64,000 bases of DNA, from IMG/VR virus record IMGVR_UViG_3300022723_000262, positions 1 through 64,000 of that record. One strand, given 5' to 3'. The position numbers and the translations under genes were made by a program. Position 1 is the stretch's first letter. Every line of letters starts with the position of its first letter. The notes under the pieces are model-generated. The model had not been told where the DNA came from, did not search any database, and saw nothing but the letters and a program-made list of their open reading frames with translations. Shown here piece by piece: positions 6,026 through 35,293 of this stretch. The DNA comes from a virus.

Positions 6026-6041
6026 GTCTCATCCGCTCCCG

Positions 6042-8402: not shown

Positions 8403-8407
8403 GGTTG

Positions 8408-11400: not shown

Positions 11401-12139
11401 GCAGCAGGAATCCGTCTTTGAAATCTGGGCGAATGGAATGTTGCACCATCAACTCCCAGAGCATCGACCGGAGCTTGCCATCGAGATCCTTCGTGTTGTA
11501 CCGGTACTCTTGGCACGGCGCGATGTGCTTCACACGCCCCACGCCGATTAAGATGCGACTGCGGCCCGCATCCTCGACGAAGGGGACCTGCTTCGCATAA
11601 AAGAAACACAAGGACTCATCGGCGACGATGTGAGCTCGGAAACAGTCCAGTAGTGCGGTGTGATTCCGATAGTCCTGTATCCACTGAGTTGGAAACCCGA
11701 GGTCAGGTTCGCGCTCCGGCTGCACGTCGATCGCGTATTCCTCTCCCAAGCCAGGCATGGCATCGGCGAGCATCCAAGCGAACGGGATTGCGGCGGCGGA
11801 GTATTTCGGATGTCGTAGCGGCGTCGGGACAAAATGCGCATGCGCGCAGTCTTCGCCCCGGTTGTACGGATGGTTCTTCATCTTCGTGAATTCGAACGGA
11901 GCCATGAAACTGACTCGTTCGTCCACGCAGCACGGCCACTGGTTTTCAGCGAGATCATTGATGGACTGGCTGGCCACCGCTTGCTCGGCCGCGTCGTCTC
12001 GCGACTGCCCGATACGTTTCAATCGCAGGCAGGAATCATTAAGATGGGGCTGTGCGCAAACCCGTCCGTCCCAGGCGGTATCGTGCCAAGGGACACGGAT
12101 CGAAATGTGGCGAAGCGGGTATGTCTCAGGCATGACCAT
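8408..12139 (-). CDS. Large RecD-like SF1 helicase with C-terminal nuclease-like domain
   Basis: 1,243-aa protein. Residues 1-600 hold no motif I can name. The SF1 helicase core follows with Walker A GPAGTGKT (about 637-644), motif II region VIIDESSML and the late RecD/UvrD motif HKCQGSEF...YTALTRQKDRVV. Residues about 1110-1180 (SKSEVIIADHITRRG, then YPDFTIED and YYWEHCG) fit a PD-(D/E)XK-like or Vsr-like nuclease in which the usual Lys is not obvious. It lies 5 bases upstream of hsdR in the operon. DNA unwinding coupled to cleavage during defence is likely; the nuclease call is tentative. Confidence 0.82.
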   Translation of the reverse strand: MVMPETYPLRHISIRVPWHDTAWDGRVCAQPHLNDSCLRLKRIGQSRDDAAEQAVASQSINDLAENQWPCCVDERVSFMAPFEFTKMKNHPYNRGEDCAHAHFVPTPLRHPKYSAAAIPFAWMLADAMPGLGEEYAIDVQPEREPDLGFPTQWIQDYRNHTALLDCFRAHIVADESLCFFYAKQVPFVEDAGRSRILIGVGRVKHIAPCQEYRYNTKDLDGKLRSMLWELMVQHSIRPDFKDGFLLPYHAAIELAKTDSDFDPAEIAAFSPDDRSLEFSHVSQLVTHDAAIASLLACAESLRRAKEKLPGPWDQCIEWIDHRLDELWKVRGPCPGLGAALWAFGLKLGTFVAHDVAEKAGENANPWPLVDQVFDAPKKHLPAHLASGIGKTLREKWSRLKPEKRALLELLSRFEITKAQAETLYDPIRRKKAGFEVDEKGILANPYLLYELTRLTDAPISVWTVDRGVFPDEVIRKEHPLPEPSALDAGTDARRVRGLTVKVLEDASGNGCTLLPQDEVVERIRGLTLEPSCEVDSDLIDVAKDDFDDAVVEVPMANDAPALQLGRLADMGAVIRSAVTKRVGGTRLEVNADWRALLDEHLKKKGAKGSDELEEKAREEKTAALKELAESRISVLIGPAGTGKTTLLSVLCSQKDIAKGGVLLLAPTGKARVRMEQSTQDLKLKGYTIAQFLSPHRYDASTGRYKLSDKPAEAGARTVIIDESSMLTEEMFAALIQALKGVHRLILIGDPRQLPPIGSGRPFVDVTNHLEPEGGRERFPRVGPGYAELTIRRRQAGQDREDLQLAEWFSGSPIAPGEDEVFDTVVRTGKSDHVRFEQWDSPDELRAKVINILVEELKLDGPDDIVGFDRILGGTEWNDKRFFNFGAAEAAECWQILSPVKTGPHGAPDLNRQIHKQFRQEMIDESRKQRNRKYPKPMGPEEIVYGDKVINVVNTDPTQWWNRHRKVFPEKDSPYIANGEIGMVEGFFWKRGLPDFRWKLEVEFSSQPRFKYDYTSRDFSEEGSAILELAYALTVHKCQGSEFGTVFLVMPNPCRVLSREMLYTALTRQKDRVVILHQGPRSELRKYSSDDRSDTAQRLTNLFAAPSPITIDGRMFEESLIHRTSSGEMVRSKSEVIIADHITRRGIELLYERPLTIDGVTKYPDFTIEDMESGKNYYWEHCGMLHVPSYRKRWEKKLAWYKANGILPREDGGGPNGTLIITRDEANGSIDSGGIDDLLDDLDL

Positions 12140-12165
12140 CGTCCATGTTTAGAAAACTGTGATGC

Positions 12166-12203
12166 ACAGCGTATCGTCTGCAGGCGTCAGCTTTGCTGGG
12201 CAT
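12166..12203 (-). pseudogene. Remnant of an hsdR 5' end
   Basis: An ATG at 12203 (minus) opens a short frame that reads MPSKADACRRYAV before diverging and stopping near 12126. This matches the start of the intact HsdR (MPNEADTCRRYVV). At DNA level 12166-12203 matches 8365-8402 at 32 of 38 positions. The remnant sits just upstream of the RecD-like gene, so the 3.7-kb helicase gene is bracketed by two copies of an hsdR start. This is best explained by insertion of that gene in front of hsdR, or by loss of another hsdR copy. Confidence 0.72.
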
Positions 12204-12206
12204 AAG

Positions 12207-12953
12207 TCACGTCTGATCGTCTGGTACATCGGCGTCACATTCATCAACGACGTCTGGTCCGCCCTTTGGAGAATTTGGACGCGGTCCGCAACGCAGGCAC
12301 TTCCCGTCCACGAACCACCAGGCATCAAGGCAGTATGCCCTCGCGATACTGTCTGTGGTGACTGACTTCGCAGCCTTCTGCGTTAAGAAGATGACCGGCG
12401 GCAGCCAGCCGTCCACAGCGACGTCATTCCTAAAATCTGCGATGAGTTGCGGCCGGTCATTTCGAACGAAGAAGTTTCTGTTCTTCATGCCTCTGGCCTT
12501 GTGGATGTGGCAGAGCATGTCAAGGACGATGATTCCCGCAAATCCGTCGTTATCATGCCTCTCGATCCTTCGGAGACTTTCAGGCGTCGCCAATACGATA
12601 TTGGAAAACGACTGAGGCAGTCTTAGCGTCGTAACTGCCACACGGGCTAACTGATCTTCTCGGAGCCACCGCTGGATGAGGACGGCGGCCATTTTCTTTG
12701 TCGCCGCGACGACGATCCATTGACTGCCCGGAGTCGCATCGTGCAGCGCGCGAATGACGTCGATTGTGCCACCCAACGGCTTGCAGTCCCCTACAAACAC
12801 ACCGACGTTGTTTGTGCCCAGGGTCCAGGCTGTTTCCGCATTCAGCTCAAACCACCCCAAACGATTCTCCTCGAGCCGGGTTATCCGTGGACCACGAATC
12901 CATGCATCCCGATAACGACTCGCCACGTTTCCCGGTAGCCGTTCGCTGCTCAT
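12207..12953 (-). CDS. Degenerate SF2-helicase-like protein of the defence operon
   Basis: About 248 aa from the ATG at 12953, which lies 8 bases after the stop of the YprA-type helicase. The middle keeps the cadence of an SF2 helicase: SQWIVVAATKKMAAVL (motif Ia-like), NIVLATPESLRRI (motif Ib-like) and AGIIVLDMLCHIHKARG where an active enzyme would have DExH. No Gly-Lys-Thr Walker A is present. It is therefore probably an inactive helicase fold acting as a partner or scaffold. The C-terminus has one CxxC and a Pro/Asp-rich tail. The fold assignment is from pattern only. Confidence 0.6.
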   Translation of the reverse strand: MSSERLPGNVASRYRDAWIRGPRITRLEENRLGWFELNAETAWTLGTNNVGVFVGDCKPLGGTIDVIRALHDATPGSQWIVVAATKKMAAVLIQRWLREDQLARVAVTTLRLPQSFSNIVLATPESLRRIERHDNDGFAGIIVLDMLCHIHKARGMKNRNFFVRNDRPQLIADFRNDVAVDGWLPPVIFLTQKAAKSVTTDSIARAYCLDAWWFVDGKCLRCGPRPNSPKGGPDVVDECDADVPDDQT

Positions 12954-12961
12954 CAATCCAC

Positions 12962-15379
12962 TCAGCTCAATTTGTGGCCGCAGTTTTTGCAAAATCTGTC
13001 GCCCTTAGTGATGTTGCTGTTGCAGGCGGGGCAGGTAGCAATCGCATCCGGAGCGAGCGTGGCTGCAGCATCGCTGCTTCGTTCTGTGACTTTTGGCTCC
13101 CCAACTGCCATCTCGTCATGAATCATCTGGAGAAGCTTCGTCGTAGCGTCCTTGCTAGCTGGCTCGTCTATCCGTGGATTGGCGATGCATCGAAAACATC
13201 CCGAATCTTCTTTGCAGTCGCATGTCTTCAATCTCTCCAAAGCCTTTTCGATCAAGACTTGAATCTTGTCGAAGGCCCCGGTCGTTAGGTCTACTCCGTC
13301 GTAGACACTGTCGTAGAGGTAGATCACAGCGTTGCCGTCTTTCAAGACTTCGCTGAAGGAAGAGAAGTCCTGAATGTCGCAGGGGCCGCTCACGGTGGGA
13401 AACAGGCTCGACAGCAACCGTTCGCACGACGTCAAGGCCGACGCCGCCTGGCGTGGCCCTACCGCCGCGACGGCATCGTCCCAAAGAGATTTGCGAATCA
13501 GCACCTGTGTGGCGACGGTTGGCAGTGTATGGGCTGGCATACCAGCGGAACCCTGCCATTGCTGAATGACATTACCTGATCGGTCTTTTTCCGCGACGGC
13601 GACGATGAATTCGGTTACATCAATATCAACGGTGGCAATTGTTAGATCTGGGTAGTCCGCCACCGAATTTCGTCGCTTGAGACGAATCTGCTTCTGAATG
13701 AACGGCGATGTCTCGTTCCATGAGTACTCGCGGTCGAGCCTCACAATTTTCTTCCCTTTGATCACGTCCTTTACCCGATACCCGACACCTCCGTGTCGGT
13801 AGATAGCATTTCGATATGCCTCGCGAAGCAAATGAAAATCATCGATTTCACCGATCTTCTCTGACCCACATTCAAGCGAGTACGACCCCTCGCCCATACT
13901 TCGAATATTGACCTCCGAATGTGGGTCGGATCGATAAAAGATGTCGTCATCAAGTGAACCGCTGGCACGAAGCTCGGCAACCGTCTTGATGGAATCGCCC
14001 AACGCTCCGAGGTGTAGCCTGTCGTCGACACCGCCGACCTCGCTCACTGCGCACGCGTAGTGACAATACACGACCCGACGGTTGGAGAGGTTAAGCGCGA
14101 GAGGCTCATTCTCTTTAGCGAATAGCTCGTCCGGATGATCCGCATAATACGAATCGATGGGCGTATCAGCCGGAACGAGAATAATCCCCCCTTCTTTTCC
14201 TGCTCGCGCAACGCGACCAGCGCGCTGCCAGAGACTCATCATGCTACTCGGAACCCCAACACAGACGACAACGTCAAGAGCGCCGATGTCGATCCCAAGC
14301 TCCAATGCGCTGGTGGAGAAGACCAAGCGAACCGACTTATCGCGTAGCCCTGCTTCGATTGCTTCACGTTCTTGCGCCGAAAGGCCAGCGCGATATACCT
14401 TGACGAACGGCAATTCGTCATCCTTAGATGAGAGCACACGGGCCATCATCCGTTCGGCGGCGAGACGGCTCGGGCAAAAAGCAAGGACGCTGAGGCCTTT
14501 CTTCGCAAGGCTGAGGGCGATCTTCCGTCCCAGGTCGTAAAAATGATCGTGGCCGCTAAGCATCCAGAACTTCTTACGCCCTTGAATGCTGCCATCCTTG
14601 TCTGGTCCTACCTCGTGAAACGGCAGACCAGTCAGTTTCTCTAGGTGTTCTCGCGGATCACGTATCGTGGCAGACGTGGCGACGAACGTCGGGTTCGAGC
14701 CGTGGATTTCGCAGATCTGTCGAAGCCTCCGAAGAATATAGGCGACATTGGTCCCAAAAATCCCGCGGTATTCGTGGCACTCGTCGATAATCGCGTAACG
14801 AAGATGCGCGAAAAAACGGGCCCATTTTGGGTCATGATGCTGCAAAATGCCGATGTGGAGCATGTCAGGATTAGTCAGGGCGACCTGTACCTGGTCTCGC
14901 ACGTCGTTCCTCACACCCTGCGGGGTCGAGCCATCGTATCGGCTGATCAAGTGAGGCCGAGAGGCGATTCTCTTCGAGATCGCATCTAGTTGCAGGGCGG
15001 TCTCTTTCAGTTTGGAAAACTGATCATTTGCGAGCGCCTTCTGCGGGTAAATAAACAAAGCGGTCGCGTCTCGGTCTCGCAGAAGTGCGTCGAACACGGG
15101 TGCCGAATAGATCAGCGACTTTCCGGACGACGTTTGTGTTGCAACAACGGTGTTGTTCCTAGAGAGGATCTGGCGAATTGCCAGCGCTTGGTGCTGGAAG
15201 AACCCGTCCGGAAACTCGTGTTCAAGCAGGTGGCGAAGGTCGTCGTGCAGGTCAATGTCTGAAACCGGAAGAAAGTGTCCTGCGGTCGGTCCGGTCGCGG
15301 GCGGATCATGGTGAACCGTAATGTCACCTTGCTCTGATAGCACTGTTGTAATGCGTGCGATCACTGATTCCGACGCCAT
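12962..15379 (-). CDS. YprA/MrfA-type DEAD/DEAH helicase with DUF1998-type C-terminus and zinc ribbon
   Basis: About 805 aa. Motifs in order: Walker A TQTSSGKS, DEAH-type IIDECHEYRG, then GVPSSMMSLWQRAGRVARAG (motif VI). A four-Cys cluster (CDCKEDSGCFRC) follows that is typical of DUF1998/MrfA helicases, and a C-terminal zinc ribbon (CPAC...CKNC). The frame is open from a TTG at 15427, but the ATG at 15379 is preceded at 8 bases by GGAGG and is chosen. Relatives repair DNA crosslinks (MrfA) or act in anti-phage systems (Druantia, DISARM). As first gene of the operon, it probably supplies the main dsDNA translocase. Confidence 0.85.
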   Translation of the reverse strand: MASESVIARITTVLSEQGDITVHHDPPATGPTAGHFLPVSDIDLHDDLRHLLEHEFPDGFFQHQALAIRQILSRNNTVVATQTSSGKSLIYSAPVFDALLRDRDATALFIYPQKALANDQFSKLKETALQLDAISKRIASRPHLISRYDGSTPQGVRNDVRDQVQVALTNPDMLHIGILQHHDPKWARFFAHLRYAIIDECHEYRGIFGTNVAYILRRLRQICEIHGSNPTFVATSATIRDPREHLEKLTGLPFHEVGPDKDGSIQGRKKFWMLSGHDHFYDLGRKIALSLAKKGLSVLAFCPSRLAAERMMARVLSSKDDELPFVKVYRAGLSAQEREAIEAGLRDKSVRLVFSTSALELGIDIGALDVVVCVGVPSSMMSLWQRAGRVARAGKEGGIILVPADTPIDSYYADHPDELFAKENEPLALNLSNRRVVYCHYACAVSEVGGVDDRLHLGALGDSIKTVAELRASGSLDDDIFYRSDPHSEVNIRSMGEGSYSLECGSEKIGEIDDFHLLREAYRNAIYRHGGVGYRVKDVIKGKKIVRLDREYSWNETSPFIQKQIRLKRRNSVADYPDLTIATVDIDVTEFIVAVAEKDRSGNVIQQWQGSAGMPAHTLPTVATQVLIRKSLWDDAVAAVGPRQAASALTSCERLLSSLFPTVSGPCDIQDFSSFSEVLKDGNAVIYLYDSVYDGVDLTTGAFDKIQVLIEKALERLKTCDCKEDSGCFRCIANPRIDEPASKDATTKLLQMIHDEMAVGEPKVTERSSDAAATLAPDAIATCPACNSNITKGDRFCKNCGHKLS

Positions 15380-15642
15380 CACCAATGCCTCCGGAAAGGG
15401 CACGGAACTGAATTGCACCCCCTTCAAGGTGGAGTGCGGACAGTGCAGCTGTTCGTGCCATGTTTATCAAACACCGAACATCTTATCCGACCGCAAGGTT
15501 ATGTCTATCCCCAGGGCAAGAAAAGTGCCGGTGATGCATGCAAGGCATTGCAATACAGCAACTTACAGAAGAAGCCTGGCGACGTATTCACTGCGGACAG
15601 GATGCCGGCGACGAGTGGAGTGATGACGTGCGTTGCTGCTCC
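15380..15642. other. Intergenic region upstream of the helicase operon
   Basis: About 260 bases without a convincing gene. Short frames exist on both strands but have no start signals or family resemblance. The promoter of the leftward operon is expected here; I could not fix a clear -35/-10 pair. A GACATAACC string near 15500 (minus) partly resembles the phage promoter motif but lacks the rest of it. Confidence 0.4.
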
Positions 15643-15815
15643 GGGCGGAGCAGTTTTTCGAGGATCGCGGGCTTGCCGGCGGTGACGCGGGGGGAGGAAG
15701 AGAAGCTCCTCCTGGATGTCGGGGGCGAGGAGCGCCAGGTTCAGGATCTGGGACCTATGGGACTGGGCGAGGTGGCCGGCGGGCCAGTTTCATCACGTCG
15801 GAAACTTCGCGGGTG
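15643..15815 (-). pseudogene. Decayed copy of the recombinase-linked HTH gene
   Basis: This stretch aligns with the interior of the intact gene at 17716-18120 (match region about 17793-17962). The minus strand still encodes DIQEELLFLP, as in the intact protein, but a one-base insertion in a G-run around 15690 shifts the frame, and the ends are missing. It is a relic of a second, related recombinase cassette. Together with the intact copy it brackets the TcmP-DUF5131 gene pair in the same orientation. Confidence 0.75.
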
Positions 15816-15831
15816 AAACGAAGCTACGGCA

Positions 15832-16734
15832 TCAGATCGTTTCGCCGGCGCCGAGAATGTGATCGGCGATCCTCGCTCCGGTCCGTTTCGGCGAAGCGAG
15901 CATGAGGTAGTAAAGGTGCCCGCGCCGTGTGTTGCGAATCAGTGCTGCCTTGGTGACGTGTCCGAACGCAGCTCGCAGCCGGCCCTGATACCACTTTACA
16001 AGGCGTTTGCCGGATTGCTCGATCTTCTCCTCCGCATCGCCGAAGAAAGTGCGAGTCGTGCGGTAAACAACGTCGAACCACTCTGGCGAACCGAAGTACT
16101 CGTCGAGCATGGCACGTCGCTGGTCCGTTATCTTCCCGGTATCGCGCGGCAGCAATCGCTGAATCGCCATACCGACGGGGAAATTCAGGAACACCTCAAT
16201 CGCTTCGGTTTGTCCGAGCAATTCCAACGTCCGCCAAGGGACTTGCATGCCGAACGGATCGAGGAACACCAGCGCCCGATTGCACCTCCAATCGACCTTC
16301 GGGTTGGCCACGACATTCTTCTGCAGATACCCGTTGCAGTCCTGCTGTCGAATGCGGATGGTCCGACTCTCACCGAATTGTTCCTTCAACGACTCGAGCT
16401 GAGCGACACGGGTTGGCGAGCGGTCAATAAAGACGTAGCCGGTGAAAGGGTGTTGGATGTTCAGCGCGACACGGGGAGAACCAGCGAGGAATTGCTGCTG
16501 TTCCTCTTGTGCCTGACCGAAGCTGGCGACGTCCACAAGTGGATTCGTTTTCGTGCGAGACTGGCCACGTTCTTTCTTCCGCACTTCGTGTTCGCCCGGA
16601 CCAGCGAAAGCATCGATGTAGTAGAACCCCTCACACCACTGCTGATCCTTCATGATCGTGGTGTAGGCACTCAAGTACTTTCCCAACCGATCGAGTTTGT
16701 CAGCGGCCCAAGGGCCAACTACGCTGTCTGCCAT
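15832..16734 (-). CDS. tcmP: Three-Cys-motif partner protein TcmP
   Basis: 300-aa protein with the TcmP hallmarks: an N-terminal VGPWAADKLDRLGKYLSAY segment, then CEGFYYIDAFAGPGEHE, which looks like a Rossmann-type methyltransferase motif I, and NPLVDVA. Members are found next to a three-Cys-motif protein, here the DUF5131 gene 13 bases upstream, so the pair is complete. No biochemical role is firmly known; SAM binding or nucleic-acid modification is suggested by the DAFAGPG loop. Neighbouring relics of a mobile element mark it as transferred cargo. Confidence 0.88.
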   Translation of the reverse strand: MADSVVGPWAADKLDRLGKYLSAYTTIMKDQQWCEGFYYIDAFAGPGEHEVRKKERGQSRTKTNPLVDVASFGQAQEEQQQFLAGSPRVALNIQHPFTGYVFIDRSPTRVAQLESLKEQFGESRTIRIRQQDCNGYLQKNVVANPKVDWRCNRALVFLDPFGMQVPWRTLELLGQTEAIEVFLNFPVGMAIQRLLPRDTGKITDQRRAMLDEYFGSPEWFDVVYRTTRTFFGDAEEKIEQSGKRLVKWYQGRLRAAFGHVTKAALIRNTRRGHLYYLMLASPKRTGARIADHILGAGETI

Positions 16735-16747
16735 GTCTGCCCGCGCC

Positions 16748-17575
16748 TTATGCGGTTTGTCGATTGGGTAGCGCCGGAGTCAACGGCCAGGAGTCAGCAA
16801 GGGAAGCAGCGAGTTGCTTCCGCGTTGCTACATCTGGGACGGCGCTACGAGTGACGCGCGGGAACTCATCGTAAGTGCGTCCGTCGAGTTCGCGTCCATT
16901 CTGGCTCTTGCGAACGCCTCCCCACTGCTTGAAGAAGAATGGCACCTTCGCCTTCCGGCACTGTCGCCGGATGTTCAATACCCACGACTTGTCCATCGGT
17001 CTGGCCCCAGCGCCGCTTTCACCGCCAACGATCACCCAGTTGATGCCAGTGAAGTCGACGTCGCCTAGATCTTCCAGGAGAGGTTCCACCGACAAGAATG
17101 CCATCGCCGGGTTCGTCTGGCGAAGATGGGCTATGCGAGGTACACCATGCCGTTGGTTTTCGACGCTAACGCCCCACCAGATATGTGGCAACTCGGCTGC
17201 GAAGCGAAGCTTGGTTGTGAGCAGGTCGCGCATTCGCTCGGAGCGTTTCGTGAGCACCTGATAGATGTGCCAGTCTGCCGTCGCCATCGTTCTGGCAACG
17301 AGTTCGATGTAGGCATCAGGCACGTCCTTGTGGAATAGGTCGCTCATCGAATTCACGAACACCATGCGCTGCTTCGACCACGTGATGGGTTCGGTCAGTT
17401 TCTCCGGCACCAGCCGCAGGTCGAAGCCCTGCTCGTAGGGATGGCCGGGCACGCCGCGAAATCGCTCGGCAAACGTCTCGGCGTAGCAGTGGGCGCAGCC
17501 GGGACTGATCTTGGTGCAGCCACGCACAGGGTTCCAGGTCGCGTCCGTCCATTCGATCTTGGAGTTCGCGCTCAT
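16748..17575 (-). CDS. DUF5131 / phage Gp37-Gp68 family three-Cys-motif protein
   Basis: 275-aa protein starting MSANSKIEWTDATWNPVRGC. The three-Cys motif is C-x6-C-x2-C (GCTKISPGCAHCYAE), a spaced variant of the radical-SAM [4Fe-4S] motif. The family (Gp37/Gp68, DUF5131) also contains VNSMSDLFHKDVP and the GGESGAGARPMDK segment seen here. It is probably an iron-sulfur enzyme acting with TcmP downstream. The start is supported by GGGAGGG 5 bases upstream and a promoter-like pair at 17602-17631. Reaction and substrate are unknown. Confidence 0.9.
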   Translation of the reverse strand: MSANSKIEWTDATWNPVRGCTKISPGCAHCYAETFAERFRGVPGHPYEQGFDLRLVPEKLTEPITWSKQRMVFVNSMSDLFHKDVPDAYIELVARTMATADWHIYQVLTKRSERMRDLLTTKLRFAAELPHIWWGVSVENQRHGVPRIAHLRQTNPAMAFLSVEPLLEDLGDVDFTGINWVIVGGESGAGARPMDKSWVLNIRRQCRKAKVPFFFKQWGGVRKSQNGRELDGRTYDEFPRVTRSAVPDVATRKQLAASLADSWPLTPALPNRQTA

Positions 17576-17715: not shown

Positions 17716-18120
17716 TCAAAGGCCGTTTTCCGACCGCAGCTTTGACCATATTACCCGCTGTTTCTCCCAGCAAATCTCGGCCGAGACGGGTCGCAGCATC
17801 TTCTCGTGGATGGCCGGCTTGCCCTTGGTGACGCGGGGCAGGAAAAGTAATTCCTCTTGGATGTCGAGGGCAAGTTGGGCCAGGGCCAGGATTTGTGACA
17901 TCCGTGGCTGGGTGACGTGGCTCAGGCGGGCCAATTCGGTCAGGTCGGAGACCTCGCCCGTCTGGAGCATCCGTTCCAGGCGGATGGCGACGGCGACAAG
18001 TCGCGAGATACGCGGGATACGGCCTGGTGTGACGGGCGACGCGTCCGACGGCTTGGTGGCGACGCGGCGGCGGCCGTGGGCTTCGCGGGAGAGTTGCAGT
18101 TTGCGTTTGACGGTGATCAT
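17716..18120 (-). CDS. Recombinase-linked HTH protein
   Basis: 134-aa basic protein. The centre reads DLTELARLSHVTQPRMSQILALAQLALD, a clear helix-turn-helix pattern. The start ATG overlaps the recombinase stop (ATGA), so it is translationally coupled to it. Proteins of this type accompany large serine recombinases in planctomycete elements; a role as DNA-binding accessory or directionality factor is inferred from position. A decayed paralogue lies at 15643-15815. It is the outermost phage gene on this side, so the integration boundary is probably in the 140 bases to its left. Confidence 0.72.
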   Translation of the reverse strand: MITVKRKLQLSREAHGRRRVATKPSDASPVTPGRIPRISRLVAVAIRLERMLQTGEVSDLTELARLSHVTQPRMSQILALAQLALDIQEELLFLPRVTKGKPAIHEKMLRPVSAEICWEKQRVIWSKLRSENGL

Positions 18121-19679
18121 GCGGCGTCCTCAATGTTCCCATCGGCCAGCGTCTTGATGGCCGACGGGTGGAATGAAATGGCGATGGTGTCGTCTGCGGG
18201 ATCGAACTCGACGCGGGCGACCAGCAGGGCCAGCACTTGGGCCTGCTCGCGCGAGCTGAGCGCATTCCAGACGTTGTCGAAGTCCGCGAACGCGGCGGCG
18301 ACATCGGATTCGTCGATGCGTTGGCGTTGAACTTCCGCAACCCGGTTCTTGATGCGTCCCAGGTCGAGTTCGGATCGGGCAATCCTTTCGTGCAGGTCGG
18401 CCATGCGGGCGGTCGTGGCGCTGCTCGGATCGTGTGTCACCGTCAGGCGTTTGATCTCAGCGTGATCGCGGCCGAGTTGTCTCTCGAGCTGCAGTTGCTG
18501 CGTGGCGAGCTCGGCCAGTTTGTCGTCCGAGGCGGACCGGGCTTGGCGTAGCACTTCGTCGCGCAGGCCAGAGTCGTGTGCGATACAGCGAATCTGGTCG
18601 ACGACGGCGGCTTCAATTTCGCCGGCGGGAAGCGACTTGGTCGGACAAGTCTTGTAGCCGCTTTTGATCGCCTTTGTGCATGTGTAGTAACGGTAGCGTT
18701 TCGACCCGCGACCCGTGAACGTGTGGACCATCGACTGATCGCACGCACTGCAATGCAACAGACCCTTGAGCAGGGCACCGTACTTGTTGATCAAATAGTT
18801 GCCTTGCCCGCGGCCGTGCTGTTGTAGCGTCGCCTGGACCTTTTCGAAGACGTCCGTGTCGATCAGTGCCTCGTGCTCGCCATCGTACACATTGGTCTTG
18901 TGCTTGATCTTGCCGATGTAGATGGGGTTGGTCAGCAACGCGTAAATCGAACACTTGTCGAACGGTCGGCCACCGCGGGCCATGCCCTTCTTCGTCGTCC
19001 AGGACTTGTTGCACCATCCGCGCCGCGTCACTTCTTCAACGACGGGCAACAGCGAGCCGAGTTCCAGGTACAGACTGAAGATCCGCCGCACCTGAACGGC
19101 CTCTTCGGCGTTGACCACAAGCTTGGGACTGGGGTTCGAACGGTCGACGTCGTATCCGAGCACGGGGATACCGCCCGCCCATTTTCCCTTCCGGCGCTGG
19201 GCGGCGATCTTGTCGCGGATGCGTTCGCCGATGATCTCGCGTTCGAATTGGGCGAACGACAACAGAATGTTCAGGGTCAACCGGCCCATTGAATGCGTGG
19301 TATTGAACTGTTGCGTGACCGACACGAATGACACGCCGTGCTTATCGAACGTCTCCATGATCCTGGCGAAGTCCAACAGTGAGCGGCTAAGTCGATCGAC
19401 CTTGTAGACGACTACGCAATCGATCTTGCCGGCCTCAATGTCGGCCATCAGGCGATTCAAGGCCGGCCGGTCCATGCTGCCGCCGGAGAAACCCCCGTCG
19501 TCGTAGTGTTCGGGCAGGCATTCCCATCCTTCGTGCTGCTGGCTGGCAATGAACGCTTCAGCCGACTCACGCTGAGCGTCGAGCGAGTTGAATTCCAGCT
19601 CAAGGCCTTCCTCGCACGACTTGCGGGTGTAGATCGCGCAGCGGATCGCCGGCGTCGTAGGTTTCTTTTTGCGGCTCAT
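18117..19679 (-). CDS. Large serine recombinase (integrase/resolvase family)
   Basis: 520 aa from the ATG at 19679, which overlaps the DUF2924 stop (ATGA); a longer open frame upstream is spurious because it runs through the DUF2924 gene in another frame. The N-terminal resolvase domain has CAIYTRKS with the catalytic Ser near residue 21, and KVDRLSRS. It is followed by a recombinase domain and a zinc ribbon (CSAC...CTKA...C), then a long coiled coil. Large serine recombinases integrate and excise phages at short att sites. This is probably the prophage integrase. Confidence 0.92.
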   Translation of the reverse strand: MSRKKKPTTPAIRCAIYTRKSCEEGLELEFNSLDAQRESAEAFIASQQHEGWECLPEHYDDGGFSGGSMDRPALNRLMADIEAGKIDCVVVYKVDRLSRSLLDFARIMETFDKHGVSFVSVTQQFNTTHSMGRLTLNILLSFAQFEREIIGERIRDKIAAQRRKGKWAGGIPVLGYDVDRSNPSPKLVVNAEEAVQVRRIFSLYLELGSLLPVVEEVTRRGWCNKSWTTKKGMARGGRPFDKCSIYALLTNPIYIGKIKHKTNVYDGEHEALIDTDVFEKVQATLQQHGRGQGNYLINKYGALLKGLLHCSACDQSMVHTFTGRGSKRYRYYTCTKAIKSGYKTCPTKSLPAGEIEAAVVDQIRCIAHDSGLRDEVLRQARSASDDKLAELATQQLQLERQLGRDHAEIKRLTVTHDPSSATTARMADLHERIARSELDLGRIKNRVAEVQRQRIDESDVAAAFADFDNVWNALSSREQAQVLALLVARVEFDPADDTIAISFHPSAIKTLADGNIEDAA

Positions 19680-20164
19680 TTGTCCCTCCATAGGCGAAAG
19701 AACAAGAAGCCGTTGACGTGCGAACCGGTGACCGCTTTGGCGATGGCCGACAGCGATCGATAACGCTTGCCTTGGAACTCGAATCCGTCGGCAATCACCA
19801 GCACGCGGATCGTCCGCCCTTTGTACTCGCGCTCGATCCAATTGCCGGGCGGTGGGAGGCGGGGATCGCGGCCGCTGTCCATCTTGATCGTTGACGGACG
19901 GGAGTCGGTGCTCTTGGCATTCTTCTCGCGCGGCGGCGTAACACGAATCTCGGCGTCGTTGGCCAGCTCTTCGGCTCGCTGTCGCGCTCGTTCCGATAGG
20001 CCACCTTCGGCATTGGCCTGCAAACGCCAGGCAATGCGACGGATCAAGTAACGCTTGTGCCGGCTCCGGCACTCTTGGCCAAAGAGCTGTTCGAAGCGCT
20101 TGGCGAGTTTGCTGACTGGCATCTTTTCGAGCCGAGCCACCTCGGCTGCCACAGTCTTTGTCAT
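19676..20164 (-). CDS. DUF2924 family protein
   Basis: 162-aa basic protein matching DUF2924: N-terminal VARLEKMPVSKLAKRFEQLFG, then RHKRYLIRRIAWRLQANAEGGLS and C-terminal REYKGRTIRVLVIADGFEFQGKRYRSLSAIA split by a variable linker. The family is routinely encoded directly upstream of serine recombinases, with overlapping start and stop codons on both sides here. The C-terminal half looks like a small DNA-binding module (as in RAMA-like domains). It probably assists recombination. Function is unproven. Confidence 0.88.
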   Translation of the reverse strand: MTKTVAAEVARLEKMPVSKLAKRFEQLFGQECRSRHKRYLIRRIAWRLQANAEGGLSERARQRAEELANDAEIRVTPPREKNAKSTDSRPSTIKMDSGRDPRLPPPGNWIEREYKGRTIRVLVIADGFEFQGKRYRSLSAIAKAVTGSHVNGFLFFRLWRDK

Positions 20165-20355
20165 GGCTGGTCTCCTTCGCCTCTGGTCGCTGCATTCGAT
20201 TCATCCGGTCGTTGATCGACGTCGTCCGCAGCGAGCGGTTGGGGTTCGTCATTGCCTTGCGATTTCCAGGTTCCCGCCCGTTCGGCACGCTGCCGAACGC
20301 GAAACAGTCCGCGGGCCAAGAGGGCGGCAAGACAACTTTCACGCGTTTCGTTCAT
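20161..20355 (-). CDS. Small hypothetical protein of the recombinase operon
   Basis: 64 aa, starting MNETRESCLAALLARGLFRV, with a charged, Gln/Asp-rich tail. The start overlaps the end of the upstream 83-aa gene and the stop overlaps the DUF2924 start (ATGA). That tight packing is the main evidence that it is real. No domain is recognised. Confidence 0.6.
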   Translation of the reverse strand: MNETRESCLAALLARGLFRVRQRAERAGTWKSQGNDEPQPLAADDVDQRPDESNAATRGEGDQP

Positions 20356-20590
20356 CGTTTACCTCGCAATCCGGGTCTCGCGCGACATTGGCGAGACCGT
20401 GTGACACAGAGAGCCTCGTTTCCGAGACAAGCTCAAGGCCTGTGCCAGGACTTCGCGAGACTTGGCCAACTTCGGCCAGTTGGGCGAGGTTTCGATGGCG
20501 AACGACGCCGAGTGCGAGGATCGCGGCCACTTGGCGACGGCGTTCATCGGGAGTCAGTTCGCTGACGACCCCAACAGAAAGAGACGGCAT
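20339..20590 (-). CDS. Small 'LTPDERRR' protein, first gene of the recombinase operon
   Basis: 83 aa. The motif LTPDERRRQVAAILALGVVRHR is one I associate with short planctomycete proteins encoded beside DUF2924 and recombinases. It is the promoter-proximal gene of the leftward integration operon; promoter motif A ends 48 bases upstream. The ribosome-binding site is weak. Its function is unknown; the Arg-rich helix could bind DNA. Confidence 0.62.
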   Translation of the reverse strand: MPSLSVGVVSELTPDERRRQVAAILALGVVRHRNLAQLAEVGQVSRSPGTGLELVSETRLSVSHGLANVARDPDCEVNDERNA

Positions 20591-20638
20591 GAGGGCGGCT
20601 CGTTACCAAGGGGAAAGAATCATGTGAACGCTCGATGC

Positions 20639-20684
20639 GTCCACCCCTGGGTTATGTATGCCGTTTGCGCGCGGCACTGCGCGC
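20639..20684 (-). promoter_or_regulatory. Phage composite promoter motif, copy A (integration operon)
   Basis: Read on the minus strand: GCGCGCAGT, ten unconserved bases, AACGGCATACATAAC, three unconserved bases, then GGGRNGRAC. CGCAGT and TACATA are 17 bases apart, as in a -35/-10 pair, with the GGG block about where transcription would start. Copies C (21591-21636) and B (41614-41659) match with no gaps. It points at the 83-aa gene of the recombinase operon, 48 bases downstream. Confidence 0.75.
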
Positions 20685-20689
20685 GGCAC
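20666..20689. repeat. Perfect 12-bp tandem duplication
   Basis: TGCGCGCGGCAC occurs twice head-to-tail (20666-20677 and 20678-20689). The junction creates the upstream element of promoter copy A, so the duplication may set or tune the promoter or add a second protein-binding site. Confidence 0.8.
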
Positions 20690-20714
20690 GCGCAATAAGA
20701 GACGCGAAGGACCG

Positions 20715-20751
20715 TCTGCGCAAAGGGATAGAAAATGTCCCCCTGCGCAGA
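20715..20751. promoter_or_regulatory. Inverted repeat in the divergent regulatory region
   Basis: TCTGCGCA (20715-20722) and TGCGCAGA (20744-20751) are perfect 8-bp inverted arms with a 21-bp spacer, between promoter A and the sigma-like gene. It could bind a dimeric regulator. No T-run follows, so a terminator is unlikely. Confidence 0.5.
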
Positions 20752-20805
20752 TCGCTGTTCACCCGTCCCGCGACTGCCGACCGGCAAGAAAACCCCGGTT
20801 TTTCA

Positions 20806-20846
20806 GATGCCACACGCTTTGTGGCATCGCCACACGAGTTGTGGCG
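20806..20846. promoter_or_regulatory. Two tandem dyad operators upstream of the sigma-like gene
   Basis: GATGCCACA-CGCTT-TGTGGCATC (20806-20828) and CGCCACA-CGAGT-TGTGGCG (20828-20846) are perfect palindromes with the same core GCCACA-N5-TGTGGC. Their centres are 20 bp apart, two helical turns. They lie 145 bases upstream of the sigma-like ATG and no T-run follows. The geometry fits cooperative binding of a dimeric repressor or activator that controls the sigma-like gene. The rest of 20591-20990 has no convincing gene. Confidence 0.72.
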
Positions 20847-20990
20847 CCCCGTCTCCGCCGAGAGGACAAAACCCGGCGGTCACGGCTCGCGTCTGTGTCG
20901 TTTCTGCGGCCATCCGGTGCGCCGCAGCACAGCCAATCTTCGCGTACCCGGTGAATCGCCCTGGGTGGCTGCCTCCGGCAGGAGGTAGTC

Positions 20991-21584
20991 ATGAACGAGG
21001 GGTCTTCCGGTAACGAAGTTCTCAACAAGTACGCCCGCACATTGATCCGCGTCAAGGCCAAGCAGCTTGTCCGGCGGCACGGTTTCAGTCGGTCGGATCA
21101 GCCGGACGTCGAGCAGGAATTGTCTTTGCACCTGCTGAGCCAGGCATCGCACTTCGATCCCGCCCGCGGGTCGCTCAACACGTTCGTCGCCAGCGTCGTC
21201 AACTCGGCGGTGGCAATGCTGGTCCGCGAACGGGAGCGGGTGAAGCGGAGTCCCGGCGAGGACGTCGAGGTCCAGTCCCTGGCCGAGAAAGTGGAACAGC
21301 CCGATGGGCCGCCCGCGCCGCTGTGGTCGATCATCTCGATCCTGGACCTCGAGCGTCGCACCGGTGGCGATTCACCGTCTGACATCGAGCTGTTCGAACT
21401 GACGGAAGGAGTCCGTGCCGCCATCGCGTCGATGCCGCCGGAGCTGCGCCGCGTCTGCCGCTCGTTGCAGAAGCGCACCCGAACCGACACCGAACGCGAC
21501 TTGAAGATTTCGCGCAGAAATCTCGACGCAGCTATCGACTTTATCCGTCAGCACTTGACGCGTGCTGGTCTCGCGAAAAGTTAG
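20991..21584 (+). CDS. Sigma-70-like protein (ECF-type architecture)
   Basis: 197 aa, with GGAGG 7 bases before the ATG. Residues about 30-90 fit sigma region 2: DQPDVEQELSLHLLSQ, then FDPARGSLNTFVASVVNSAVAMLVRERERVKR, the core-binding and -10-melting helices. Residues about 140-195 (RAAIASMPPELRRVC, then ERDLKISRRNLDAAIDFIRQHL) fit a divergent region 4. It lies between divergent copies A and C of the phage promoter motif, so it is a good candidate to read that motif. It could instead be a sigma-like regulator. No anti-sigma gene is visible next to it. Confidence 0.75.
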   Translation: MNEGSSGNEVLNKYARTLIRVKAKQLVRRHGFSRSDQPDVEQELSLHLLSQASHFDPARGSLNTFVASVVNSAVAMLVRERERVKRSPGEDVEVQSLAEKVEQPDGPPAPLWSIISILDLERRTGGDSPSDIELFELTEGVRAAIASMPPELRRVCRSLQKRTRTDTERDLKISRRNLDAAIDFIRQHLTRAGLAKS

Positions 21585-21590
21585 GCGGCC

Positions 21591-21636
21591 GCGCGCAGTG
21601 GGGCACGCCAACGGCATACATAACTACGGGAAGGAC
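21591..21636 (+). promoter_or_regulatory. Phage composite promoter motif, copy C (early operon)
   Basis: GCGCGCAGT (21591-21599), ten bases, AACGGCATACATAAC (21610-21624), three bases, GGGAAGGAC (21628-21636). It begins 6 bases after the sigma-like stop codon and points into the early/replication operon, whose first ATG is 28 bases downstream with AAGGAG in between. It matches copies A and B without gaps. Confidence 0.78.
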
Positions 21637-21664
21637 ACTCGAATCCACTTCCAAGGAGTGACCC

Positions 21665-21967
21665 ATGACCGTTGGCGTGTTCCGTTTTTCATTTTCACCC
21701 GAAGTCCCGATCTACGAAGTCGAGATGACGCTACAACTGGCGACCTTCGCCACCGAGGGTTTGTTCGGCGCGGCACGGGTGCGACTCGACTTCGGCTACC
21801 ACATCGATCTGAACCGTCGCGTGATCATCGCCGACGGCTCGAACGAAGTGGGCGCGACGGTCGTGCAGATTTTCGCTGGCCTGCTCCTGCGTGAATTCGG
21901 TGATGACTCGTTCCAGGTCGACCGCGTCGACTCGAATCCCACCCCGCCCTTGAAAGCCGCCGCGTGA
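21665..21967 (+). CDS. Hypothetical protein, first gene of the early operon
   Basis: 100 aa with AAGGAG before the ATG. It is beta-rich with alternating hydrophobic residues (FRFSFSPEVPIYEVEMTLQLATF) and no known motif. Its stop overlaps the next gene's GTG start (GTGA), so the two are coupled. As the first product from promoter copy C it may be an early takeover or regulatory protein, by position only. Confidence 0.68.
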   Translation: MTVGVFRFSFSPEVPIYEVEMTLQLATFATEGLFGAARVRLDFGYHIDLNRRVIIADGSNEVGATVVQIFAGLLLREFGDDSFQVDRVDSNPTPPLKAAA

Positions 21968-22227
21968 GTTCGTGGGGCTTGCCGATTCCCGTGGCGACTG
22001 CCACGCCTGGTTGGCTGGAGCACTGTCACATGAATACCGAACGCAGGAAGCGCACGTGCCTGAAGTGCAACCGGCTCTTCGATTCGGCCGGTCCCGGCAA
22101 CCGCATCTGCCGGCGCTGTCAGCAAGTGAACGACCGTCTGCCGCGATTCACCGAACAGCAGTTGCAGAAACAACGCGGCGTCAAGCGGCACAACGGCGAC
22201 ATCATCGAACCCGTCCTGGATGAATGA
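21964..22227 (+). CDS. Small zinc-ribbon protein
   Basis: 87 aa from a GTG at 21964 that overlaps the previous stop; an ATG at 22030 would give about 65 aa starting directly before the zinc site. CLKCNRLFDSAGPGNRICRRC supplies two CxxC knuckles of one zinc ribbon, followed by a basic tail. Phage proteins of this type bind nucleic acid or transcription machinery. Specific function unknown. Confidence 0.68.
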   Translation: MSSWGLPIPVATATPGWLEHCHMNTERRKRTCLKCNRLFDSAGPGNRICRRCQQVNDRLPRFTEQQLQKQRGVKRHNGDIIEPVLDE

Positions 22228-22244
22228 TGGTCGGAGCAAACCAC

Positions 22245-23285
22245 ATGACACAACTCGCACCCGCACCGCCGGACAAGAGCGTGCTGACGTTCTCGGCGCT
22301 GAACACGTTTCGCAACTGCCCGCGGAAGTACAAGCATCGCTATATCGACTGCCTGCGGCCGCGGGAGAAGCCCGATGCCCTGTCGTTCGGCAGCGTCGTG
22401 CATGGCGCGATCGAACTGTGGTATCGATCGGAGCCGAGCGAGAACCGCCTGTGGTCGGTGCTGGACTACCTCGATCAGCAGTTTCCGCTGCGGGTCGTCG
22501 ATGACGAACAGAAGGCGACGTGGAACCTGGCCCGCGCGATGTTCACAGGGTATGCCGGCCGTTACGCGACCGAAGACTTCGAGATCGTCGAGGTCGAATT
22601 GCCGTTCACCGGCGAGATCCGCAATCCCGATACCGGTCGGCCGAGCCAGACGTTCGTGATGGCCGGCAAGGCAGACGCCATCGTGAAGCGATCCGATGGC
22701 ATGTATCTGCTCGAGCACAAGACCGCGTCTTCGATCGACGCGAACTACCTCGACAAACTGTGGACCGACACTCAGATCGCGCTCTACAGCTTTTATCTGC
22801 GGCAGCTCGGCTATCCGATTGTGGGCGTGATCTACAACGTCCTCCTCAAGTCACGTCTAAAGCAGAAGGCGGGCGAGACGGAAGCTGAGTACGAAACGCG
22901 GCGCATGGAACTGGCGGCCAAGAACAAGAGCGGCCGTTCGACCGCCAAGCGTCAGATGCCGGAGTCGGACGAAGAGTTTCAGGCCCGTCTCGCCGAATGG
23001 TACGCCCGCCCTGACGCCTTCCACCGCGAGCACATTTATCTCTCTGAAGACCGCCTGGCCATGTTGCAGGAAGAGGTCTGGGAGATCACGCAGCAGTATC
23101 TTGACGCCCGCCGGCGCGGCAAATGGCTGCTCAACACTTCGAACTGCTTCTCGTACCAGCGCCCCTGCGAGTACCTGCCTTACTGCCAGTCCGGCTTCAA
23201 TCCGAACGTTGTCGACAACCTCTACGACATCTCACCTCCGCATGAGGAGCTGGCACCGGCCGATTCCGAAGCACCCGTTTTTTGA
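22245..23285 (+). CDS. RecB/Cas4-like PD-(D/E)XK exonuclease with Fe-S-type cysteines
   Basis: 346 aa from the ATG at 22245, which has GGAG upstream (an ATG at 22224 is also open). The start of the domain, TFSALNTFRNCPRKYKHRYID, and FGSVVHGAIEL are typical of AddB/RecB nuclease domains. The core is GKADAIVKRSDGMYLLEHKTAS (D...E-x-K). The late cysteines NCFSYQRPCEYLPYC with the early NCPRKY Cys fit a four-Cys Fe-S staple. It is probably the phage recombination exonuclease, working with the ATPase and DUF669 gene that follow. Confidence 0.87.
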   Translation: MTQLAPAPPDKSVLTFSALNTFRNCPRKYKHRYIDCLRPREKPDALSFGSVVHGAIELWYRSEPSENRLWSVLDYLDQQFPLRVVDDEQKATWNLARAMFTGYAGRYATEDFEIVEVELPFTGEIRNPDTGRPSQTFVMAGKADAIVKRSDGMYLLEHKTASSIDANYLDKLWTDTQIALYSFYLRQLGYPIVGVIYNVLLKSRLKQKAGETEAEYETRRMELAAKNKSGRSTAKRQMPESDEEFQARLAEWYARPDAFHREHIYLSEDRLAMLQEEVWEITQQYLDARRRGKWLLNTSNCFSYQRPCEYLPYCQSGFNPNVVDNLYDISPPHEELAPADSEAPVF

Positions 23286-23299
23286 CAAGGAGCACCCCC

Positions 23300-24088
23300 A
23301 TGACTTTGACGTTGCCCACACAACGCACCAAACCGATCACCGACCTCAGCAAACAGACCATCCTGCTGTATTCGGCGCCCAAGCTCGGCAAGTCCACGTT
23401 TGCGAGTCGTTTCCCCGAAGCCGTCTTCTTCGAGTGCGAGCCTGGCCTCAGCCACTTGGAAGTTTTCAAGGTGCCGACCTACACCTGGGACGATTTCCTG
23501 GCGGCGTGCAAGCTGGTCGCGCAGGGCAACCACCCGTTCAAGACGATCGTGATCGATACAGCGGACAATGCTTTCAAGTTCTGCAGCGAGCACGTCTGCG
23601 CGAAGCACAACATCGAATACGAAGGCGACATGGGGCACGGCAAGGGCTGGGCTCTGGTCAAGAATGAATGGCATCGCGTGCTTACACGGTTGGCCAGCCT
23701 GCCGTACGGTCTGGTTCTCATCTCGCACGCCCAGGACAAGACGATCGAGACGCGGACTGGCGAATACACCAAGACGCAGCCGAGCTTGCCGGATCGCGCT
23801 CGCGGCGTCGTGCTCGGCCTGGTTGACATCATCCTCTACGGCGACGCGATTCCGCGCAAGGACGCTGCCGGCAACGTCACGATCGATCGCGTCATGCGCA
23901 CCAAGCCGCATCCGACTTACGAAGCCGGTGACCGCACCGGTCGCCTGCCGGATGTCCTGCCCCTCGATTACGACGCCTTCGTGAAGGCATTCAATTCCGC
24001 TGCTCCCGGCTCGATTCCCGGCACCGGTGGCGCGGCGGAGCGTTCCAAGCAGCCGGGAAGCACCCAAAACGGAAAGGCTCAAAAATGA
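23300..24088 (+). CDS. Sak4-like AAA ATPase (phage recombinase family)
   Basis: About 262 aa from the ATG at 23300, with AAGGAG 8 bases before. Walker A is the variant YSAPKLGKSTFASRF near residue 20, Walker B is TIVIDTADNAF, and LVLISHAQDK is a sensor-like strand. This is a RecA-core ATPase of the phage nucleotide-binding family (Sak4/DUF-type), which promotes single-strand annealing with a cognate SSB. The next gene, DUF669, is the usual SSB-like partner. The C-terminal tail is Gly/Ser-rich and poorly conserved. Confidence 0.87.
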   Translation: MTLTLPTQRTKPITDLSKQTILLYSAPKLGKSTFASRFPEAVFFECEPGLSHLEVFKVPTYTWDDFLAACKLVAQGNHPFKTIVIDTADNAFKFCSEHVCAKHNIEYEGDMGHGKGWALVKNEWHRVLTRLASLPYGLVLISHAQDKTIETRTGEYTKTQPSLPDRARGVVLGLVDIILYGDAIPRKDAAGNVTIDRVMRTKPHPTYEAGDRTGRLPDVLPLDYDAFVKAFNSAAPGSIPGTGGAAERSKQPGSTQNGKAQK

Positions 24089-24549
24089 GCGAGTACGACG
24101 ATAGCTTTGCCCCCGACAACAGCGGCGTTGACCTCAGCGCGTTCGACGACGATTTTTCCTCGGCCGAAGCGCCCAGCTTCGACGAAGTCCCCGACGGCAA
24201 GTACCAGGCGCGGATCGATGAAGTGCGGTTGGACCGCAGCCAGAAGGGTGACCCGATGATCAAGTGGGACTTGATCGTGATCGCCGGGTCGCAAGCGGGC
24301 CGCCACATTTTCAAGAACTCGGTGATCACCCCGGCGGCGCTGCCGTTCGTGAAGGGCGACCTGAAGACCGTGGGCCTCGAGCTGGCCAAGTTCAGCGATC
24401 TTGCCGGTCGGCTTGAGGAACTGCTCGACGTGACGTTGGAGGTCACCAAGCGAACGCGCGGCGAGTACACAAACGTGTACTTCAACAAGCGGATTCAGAT
24501 CGCGGCGGATGCTGCCGGTCGACCGTCGGCCGACGAGACTCCGTTTTGA
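24085..24549 (+). CDS. DUF669 protein, probable phage single-strand DNA-binding protein
   Basis: 154 aa. The start overlaps the ATPase stop (ATGA). It has an acidic N-terminus, then the DUF669 pattern PDGKYQARIDEVRLDRSQKG and IKWDLIVIAGSQAGRHIFKN, and ends in DETPF. That acidic-Pro-Phe tip resembles the last residues of bacterial SSB, which recruit partner enzymes. With the nuclease and the ATPase it forms a recombination/replication module. SSB function is inferred from the tail, the beta-rich body and gene order. Confidence 0.83.
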   Translation: MSEYDDSFAPDNSGVDLSAFDDDFSSAEAPSFDEVPDGKYQARIDEVRLDRSQKGDPMIKWDLIVIAGSQAGRHIFKNSVITPAALPFVKGDLKTVGLELAKFSDLAGRLEELLDVTLEVTKRTRGEYTNVYFNKRIQIAADAAGRPSADETPF

Positions 24550-33030: not shown

Positions 33031-33380
33031 TGTACCTAGCCAGCCCGTACACGCATCCCGACCCGGCCGTTCGTGCCGCCCGCTTTCGAGCGACGTGCCA
33101 GGTGGCCGCGAAGCTGATCCGAGAAGGCTGCGTCGTCTTCGCGCCGATCGCGCACAGCCACCCGATGACCGAGTTCGGTTTGCCAGCCGATTGGCAATTC
33201 TGGGAACGATACGACATCGAGTTTCTGCGTCGGTGCAATGAACTGGTCGTGCTCAAGCTGGACGGGTGGCGGGAGAGTCGCGGCGTGCAGGCCGAGATCG
33301 ATTTGGCGTTGGAGATGGATTTGCCGATCCGTTACTTGGATGCGACGTGGGCAATCGAATCAACGGAGGCAACCGCGTGA
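33027..33380 (+). CDS. DUF1937 family protein
   Basis: 117 aa. MYLASPYTHPDPAVRAARF, IAHSHPMTEFGLPADWQFWERYD and VVLKLDGWRESRGVQAEI match DUF1937/nucleoside deoxyribosyltransferase-like phage proteins with a Rossmann-like fold. Likely nucleotide metabolism. Last gene of the rightward early operon; only 8 bases separate it from the convergent leftward accessory block, and no terminator hairpin is visible there. Confidence 0.85.
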   Translation: MMYLASPYTHPDPAVRAARFRATCQVAAKLIREGCVVFAPIAHSHPMTEFGLPADWQFWERYDIEFLRRCNELVVLKLDGWRESRGVQAEIDLALEMDLPIRYLDATWAIESTEATA

Positions 33381-33388
33381 GAGATGAG

Positions 33389-34309: not shown

Positions 34310-34321
34310 GTCCGTGTCCTT

Positions 34322-34552
34322 TTAACGTCGCTCGCGGGCAACCATCTCGTGGTGCCATTTCCACAGGTCGATTTCGTCGTCAGTTGCCGGGCGAACCGTG
34401 CGAATCTCAATCGGCACGTCCTTACCGAGTCGCTCGCGCAAGTCGGCGTACAGGTCATACAGCGCAGGCTGCCCGAGTCGGCGCGCCTCGCTTTCGGATT
34501 CGGCGTCCACCAAAACGTATCGGGCGAGCGTGGCGACAAGGTAGGTGGTCAT
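34322..34552 (-). CDS. Small acidic hypothetical protein
   Basis: 76 aa, GAAAGGAA before the ATG. N-terminal strand TYLVATLARYVLVDAESESEARRLG looks like a DpnD/PcfM-like beta-alpha module, a weak resemblance. A variant of the accessory leader motif lies 41 bases upstream (34593-34615). Function unknown. Confidence 0.62.
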   Translation of the reverse strand: MTTYLVATLARYVLVDAESESEARRLGQPALYDLYADLRERLGKDVPIEIRTVRPATDDEIDLWKWHHEMVARERR

Positions 34553-34592
34553 GGCGGGTTCCTTTCGTTGTTGGTTTTCAAACGCCCTACCT

Positions 34593-34615
34593 GTGACAGA
34601 GAGCCATTATTTCCG
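34593..34615 (-). promoter_or_regulatory. Accessory-block leader motif, divergent third copy
   Basis: Minus strand reads CGGAA-N5-GGCTC-TCTGTCAC, against CGGAA-N5-GGCTC-ATGTGTGAC at 36604-36627 and 37775-37798. It lies 41 bases before the ATG of the 76-aa gene, a distance similar to the other two. Confidence 0.5.
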
Positions 34616-34714
34616 CCAAAGATCAATAGGCGTGGAGCGCGTTGGCGGCACGGCGCGACGTTTGCGCCGTGTCGCGTCCGGCGGACGTGCTTGGCCAGCG
34701 GGCCAACCAACGAG

Positions 34715-34736: not shown

Positions 34737-34759
34737 GTGGGGCGACGTCGTGGCGAACG

Positions 34760-35290: not shown

Positions 35291-35293
35291 CGG

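Follow-up and report, generated by a model that had tools for sequence, protein, structure and literature searches.

What a phage-encoded, sigma-like protein does when its gene lies between two divergent copies of a short motif is the question raised by this locus. The window (the whole 64,000-nucleotide stretch that was analysed) comes from a 65.5-kb virus record, an incomplete viral contig that may therefore lack additional promoters. The initial annotation, made from the sequence alone, held that a 197-aa protein with sigma-like segments might act at three motif copies and coordinate integration, early and late operons. The explanation that best fits the results described below, to which we assign a probability of about 0.88, is that the protein is an alternative sigma factor that would direct the host core RNA polymerase to three phage promoters and, thus, switch on three operons.

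The open reading frame (ORF) at 20991-21584 (plus strand, ATG start) encodes a phage sigma factor of the sigma-70 family, with a two-domain, ECF-like organization. It matches the Pfam model Sigma70_r2 (PF04542; E 4.3e-6, 26.8 bits against a cut-off of 24), and its residues 18-189 match the PHROG family phrog_1740, 'RNA polymerase sigma factor' (E 7.8e-9). Sigma70_r2, which represents the core- and -10-binding region, is present in 31 of 34 relatives. Pfam makes no region 4 call in the window protein itself, while the r4 and r4_2 models match 22 and 18 of these relatives, respectively. TIGR02937 (sigma70-ECF) matches 34/34 family members at E<0.1, but the window protein scores 36.2 bits, under the model cut-off of 42.9, and it is therefore termed ECF-like here rather than filed as ECF. 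Its architecture (197 aa, two helical domains) is that of ECF factors, which possess regions 2 and 4 only and are about 160-200 aa long. Its associated promoter blocks, GCGCAGT at -35 and CGGCATACATAAC at -10, differ from the GGAAC-type -35 and CGT-type -10 of ECF promoters, and a GGAC-type -35 is seen in some sigma clades of this family and in phage WO. No anti-sigma gene was recognised among the neighbours of the sigma gene, several of which have no assigned function.

An AF2 model built with the 34 relatives as input (pLDDT 81.8) contains two confident helical domains, residues 13-86 (sigma2) and 131-191 (sigma4), joined by a weak linker. The top Foldseek matches in the PDB were mostly sigma subunits of RNA polymerase complexes; global TM values were low (about 0.3), probably owing to flexible placement of the two domains. 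A family profile searched against PDB sequences likewise led to sigma factors, while a phmmer search with the single protein had returned only spurious cyanovirin matches. The region 2-like and region 4-like segments of the initial annotation, and the sigma-like structure that it proposed to look for, are thus borne out by the domain matches, by region 4 in the relatives, and by the modelled helices and their PDB matches.

The motif itself proved to be larger than first described. The window contains exactly three copies of the 15-mer GTTATGTATGCCGTT, at 20651 (+), 21610 (-) and 41633 (-), and their alignment revealed, at a distance of 10 bp, a further conserved block that the initial annotation did not contain. 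The full element, GCGCAGT-N11-ACGGCATACATAA (on the opposite strand, GCGCGCAGT-N10-AACGGCATACATAAC), is present in three exact copies, and a relaxed form, GCGCANT-N11-ACGGCATACATAA, gives three zero-mismatch matches against 0 expected from 100 shuffles. Site A (20652-20682, minus strand) faces left, into the integration module. Site C (21593-21623, plus strand) lies 8 bp past the sigma stop codon and points rightward into a recombination/replication operon, and site B (41616-41646, plus strand) lies 86 bp upstream of a 65-aa ORF that is followed by the portal gene of the late operon. Read in the promoter direction, A and C face away from the sigma gene, which is therefore transcribed from neither of these two outward-facing, promoter-like elements. 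Apart from sigma, no convincing gene was found in the interval from A to C of the window. Both the placement of the sigma ORF between two motif copies and the guess that the motif serves integration, recombination/replication and late structural operons consequently stand.

Leftward of site A, on the minus strand, an 83-aa ORF without a family match (20342-20590) is the first gene, and the operon further comprises a DUF2924 protein (19676-20164; PF11149, E 8e-43), a large serine recombinase/integrase, or LSR (18117-19676; Resolvase, Recombinase and Zn_ribbon_recom domains, phrog_95 integrase), and a small recombinase-associated protein (17716-18120; phrog_14161). The plus-strand operon downstream of site C begins with a 100-aa ORF (21665-21967), followed by a zinc-ribbon-like ORF, a PD-(D/E)XK exonuclease (22224-23285; phrog_1218, PF12705), a Sak4-like AAA_24 annealing/recombination ATPase (23282-24088; phrog_124, PF13479) and a DUF669/ssDNA-binding protein (24085-24549; PF05037, phrog_7778). 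The large terminase gene (38189-40459, plus strand; phrog_38/phrog_15) is the last big plus-strand gene before site B. Beyond site B, also on the plus strand, come the 65-aa ORF (41733-41930), which has homologues at the same place in relatives, the portal protein (41932-43416; phrog_21, E 2e-67), a head maturation protease/major head protein (43376-45478; phrog_4523) and a head decoration protein (45541-45882; phrog_122).

Used as a query against IMG/VR and genome contigs, the sigma protein gave no matches; because it is too divergent for direct search, neighbouring genes were used as anchors. A scan with the motif pattern yielded a close relative, L004, in which the sigma protein is 84% identical and sites A and C are both conserved; a loose pattern match in L006, inside coding sequence and with the wrong spacing, was judged to be due to chance. 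Anchoring on the AAA_24 gene recovered 50 viral loci, and a profile search placed a sigma homologue immediately upstream of the exonuclease gene in almost every locus that extends to this position. Screening of species genomes contributed 29 further loci, all of them from Planctomycetota (Pirellula, Phycisphaerae and others), which points to this phylum as the host of the phage.

The layout of the window is kept in relatives from IMG/VR and from Planctomycetota genomes. Longer contig stretches were fetched before sites were assigned to genes, and promoter-oriented sites were found ahead of the integration module, the exo-AAA24-SSB genes and the late65-portal pair in about 20 records, while a reversed-pattern control gave 0 matches. 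Site A of the relatives, a clade-matched copy ahead of DUF2924/LSR, lies mostly about 300 bp upstream of DUF2924, with the module in either orientation; site C lies at the end of the sigma gene; and site B occupies the equivalent position, a short distance ahead of the late65-portal pair, in 13 related records, in most cases 17-20 kb from C. Of the records whose contigs extend far enough, most contain clade-matched copies of A and B; in L016/G012, site C is present and sites A and B were not found in the 30-kb contig. Longest-common-word and mismatch scans confined to sequence upstream and downstream of sigma missed most clades, since many A sites lie kilobases from the sigma gene and some C sites fall within its 3' end.

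L009 carries two tandem sigma paralogues in one phage (6793-7536 and 7619-8254), with a C site after the second only. Record G031 (L091-L093) contains two late modules on one contig, with B sites at 21456 and 35282 that belong to different sigma clades, which suggests two co-resident prophages with different sigma systems. A fourth motif copy occurs in two clades (G014, 5906+; G031, 39951+; G013, 20864-; G023, 21908+), where it lies antisense inside a large ORF between ParB-methylase and terminase.

Across clades the motif varies in sequence while its layout remains constant. At site C, the two blocks read GCGCAGT..CGGCATACATAAC in the window and L004, CGGACAG..CGGCATAGGTAAC in L007/L008/L016, CCGTCA..CGGGTATTCCAACAGATAG in the L015 group, CGCCAGT..GAGTAGTTCAAG in the L018 group, GGGACGTCGT..TTGCATAGCTAG in the L012/L017 group (inside the sigma gene's 3' end) and CGTCCG..GTGTAACCCTACAGATAG in L045. 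The co-occurrence of gene and motif that had been proposed as a check extends to 37 loci with a recognisable C motif, whose identity tracks sigma and not the neighbouring genes. Despite their different sequences, the C sites of these loci align without gaps and with constant geometry, and among 21 dereplicated loci a single G in the -10 block never varies and one A reaches 95% conservation.

The specificity of the element follows the sigma protein at A, B and C, independent of flanking genes. If sigma reads the motif, both must change together even where neighbouring genes do not, and Mantel tests were applied on this rationale. At site C, motif distance correlated with sigma distance (r 0.86; partial r 0.85 given exonuclease and AAA_24, p=0.0002), and the partial correlation with the flanking proteins was -0.10 once sigma was included. 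As site C adjoins the sigma gene, the test was repeated for site B, many kilobases away, where the correlation was 0.88 and, given portal, 0.89 (p=0.0002, dereplicated set), with portal itself at -0.04. Site A gave comparable values (r 0.86; partial r 0.85 given LSR, p=0.0002). Co-variation at site C alone could be explained by linkage to the adjoining sigma gene, an objection that sites A and B answer in statistical terms only.

Individual comparisons illustrate this pattern. G011 and G013 have portal proteins that are 97% identical, sigma proteins that are 20% identical and B motifs that are 16% alike; for G003 and the window the corresponding values are 97%, 40% and 48%. In held-out new Planctomycetota genomes, every sigma protein that shared over 50% identity with a known clade was accompanied by the C motif of that clade, which matched at 21-25 of 25 positions (random windows: mean 12.6, 95th percentile 15) and kept its place relative to the sigma end. 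For sigma proteins under about 45% identity to known clades (e.g., L105, L109, L123, L128), a partner motif could not be established. Sigma regions 2 and 4 themselves co-vary (r=0.88), so that putative matches of region 4 to the -35 block and of region 2 to the -10 block are not separately assignable.

Co-variation alone cannot separate sigma from a tightly linked factor, and the motif might instead be an operator or activator site of another phage regulator that is co-inherited with the sigma gene, while sigma acts elsewhere. Operator-like dyads and a likely repressor near the sigma gene would suit such an arrangement. It is nevertheless unlikely, as sigma is the only convincing gene between A and C in the window, and the motif is asymmetric, with a fixed two-block spacing rather than dyad symmetry, and is oriented with the downstream operon. 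Furthermore, when nine other phage proteins were tried as predictors of the motif, none of the eight that could be tested had a positive partial correlation given sigma, the ninth having too few members.

A promoter-like position and geometry would also be expected if the motifs were ordinary promoters of a host sigma factor, with the phage sigma being incidental, and Planctomycetota themselves encode numerous sigma factors. However, among phages that share a host phylum the motif tracks the phage sigma, the two late modules of a single contig bear different motifs, and a consensus scan of positions 20560-21700 detected no sigma-70 consensus promoter, which together make a host-sigma origin very improbable. 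Scarcely credible is the proposal that the serine recombinase encoded next door uses the copies as recombination sites, with the A/C pair, inverted around sigma in the window, serving to flip the sigma gene: LSR identity does not predict site A given sigma (partial r 0.09), all copies have the same orientation in L022, G003 and G025, copies also stand ahead of late genes many kilobases off, and no inverted form was seen.

A distant homologue of the sigma protein was detected by tblastn in Wolbachia phage WO (WOSOC_0031; 23% identity, E 1e-12), and the WOVitA1 homologue (gwv_1123 in KX522565) is annotated as a sigma-70 factor and is followed by an 'AAA24' gene. A sigma-70 subunit was noted in the WO replication module by Kent et al. 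(PMC3173496), and, according to a 2020 review, the targets of Wolbachia sigma factors remain to be determined (PMC7397232); no description of the WO elements reported below, or of a promoter for the WO sigma, was found in the searched literature. In six WO records, the sequence that follows the sigma stop codon is repeated, in divergent orientation, at the opposite flank of the gene, with scores above most random controls. Clade-specific sites thereby flank sigma in these six records, and a further copy lies elsewhere in several of them. The wMel element, GGACGAATT..CGTACATATATA, is found in three places: ahead of a leftward operon of methylase, terminase and portal genes, downstream of sigma, and ahead of an operon with VrlC-like and tail genes. 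In L097, WO sites with equivalents in wMel lie at 19445 (-), 20493 (+) and 26111 (+). WOVitA1 has three element copies as well, and WOVitA2/sr1WO has a related but different version. Phage WO thus resembles the window in its homologous sigma, in the AAA24-type gene after it (WOVitA1) and in its pair of outward-facing bipartite elements. The operons differ, being head and baseplate/tail operons in WO, whereas those of the window include integration.

The sigma gene appears to be under controls of its own. Two tandem, operator-like 17-bp dyads, GCCACA-N5-TGTGGC, lie upstream of it at 20806-20846 with 20-bp spacing and are conserved in L004 (2164 and 2184) and L016 (5465 and 5485). Paired dyads are also found upstream of sigma in L014 (7428 and 7535); the dyad sequence is clade-specific, and other clades have different pairs. 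No repressor gene was identified for these dyads. A hairpin, CTGCCTCC-GGCA-GGAGGTAG (20965-20992, plus strand), buries the Shine-Dalgarno sequence of the sigma gene. A GGAGG Shine-Dalgarno sequence paired with CCTCC in a hairpin precedes the sigma start in the window, L004, L007, L008, L016, L010, L012, L014, L015, L105, L110 and L122. When 151 GGAGG-led ORF starts in phage records were examined, CCTCC stood just upstream in 7, six of which were sigma genes (two of the six being duplicate entries of one locus). The ribosome-binding-site-burying hairpin is thus characteristically, and almost uniquely among GGAGG-led starts, a feature of the sigma gene in several clades. The dyads and the hairpin suggest that sigma is tightly silenced in the lysogen.

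These observations are consistent with a scheme in which the phage sigma would bind the host core RNA polymerase, and the sigma-loaded polymerase would go to sites A, B and C by way of the clade-specific -35 (CGCAGT here) and -10 (CGGCATACATAAC here) blocks; that sigma recognises these promoters directly is very likely. Site A would then serve integration/excision, site C recombination and replication, and site B virion structure. The sigma gene lies behind none of the three and is most likely transcribed from its own host-type promoter, which in a lysogen would be silenced by a putative repressor at the two tandem operators, with the hairpin over the ribosome-binding site further damping translation. 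Induction would free sigma, whereupon the lytic programme would presumably start. Because sigma and all three promoters change together across dozens of related phages and in WO, sigma is very probably the lytic master switch of the phage. We give even odds to the broader idea that sigma and promoter constitute an exchangeable transcriptional identity: phages whose genes are otherwise almost the same would swap sigma, with all three unlinked promoters rewritten to match, and many mutually orthogonal specificities would exist in one family, an arrangement that might keep co-resident prophages from triggering one another; phage WO would be run by this system too, with specificities of its own.

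PBSX Xpf, SPO1 gp28 and T4 gp55 are phage-encoded, sigma-like factors by which phage operons are switched on; they differ from the window sigma in phage type and promoter sequence. Sigma factors of this kind with few conserved promoters are already known, as is a host sigma factor that drives a prophage integrase. Phages phiEco32 and 7-11 have sigma factors with few well-conserved promoters (PMC4331800). Like the window phage, they combine their own sigma with a few conserved promoters ahead of operons (middle/late ones in their case), and their promoters, too, were found via pairwise comparison of intergenic regions (PMC4331800). In contrast, 7-11 is lytic (PMC4331800), whereas the window phage is temperate; phiEco32 and 7-11 encode an anti-sigma factor, whereas no anti-sigma gene was seen in the window phage; 7-11 has phage promoters upstream of its sigma gene, where the window has outward sites on either side; and the window regulon, unlike theirs, includes the integration module. 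In Staphylococcus, the alternative sigma factor sigma-H drives prophage int (PMC2869324), so that an alternative sigma and a prophage integrase gene are common to both cases, sigma-H being host-encoded and the window sigma phage-encoded.

As far as the searched literature shows, the temperate-phage family, the three-operon regulon with outward sites around sigma, the concerted re-specification of unlinked promoters and the extension to WO are new. A temperate phage family of Planctomycetota, a phylum on whose phages little was found in that literature, gains a concrete candidate master regulator with predicted targets, and the family amounts to a natural library in which sigma-promoter pairs differ in specificity. 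Candidate targets for the extra Wolbachia sigma factors might provide a handle on the entry of phage WO into lytic growth. Moreover, three distant promoters that change in concert with the sigma gene present an unusual, dissectable case of regulatory co-evolution.

Other features of these phages lie outside the three operons. A defence cluster to the left of the integrase gene (2686-17575 in the window) comprises type I restriction-modification, a PDC-S68 helicase, an MrfA-like helicase and a PDC-M41A/B pair. A 1575-aa ORF (33266-37993) has no PHROG match; its counterparts in relatives occupy the same position and differ widely in length. Several kilobases downstream of sigma, many relatives carry long imperfect palindromes, TGCGCCGGGTTGCGC...CATGCGCGTACGCGCATGG (L025, 14549-14637; L029, 15918-16005; L044, 15192-15290), which are possibly an origin or a structured RNA.
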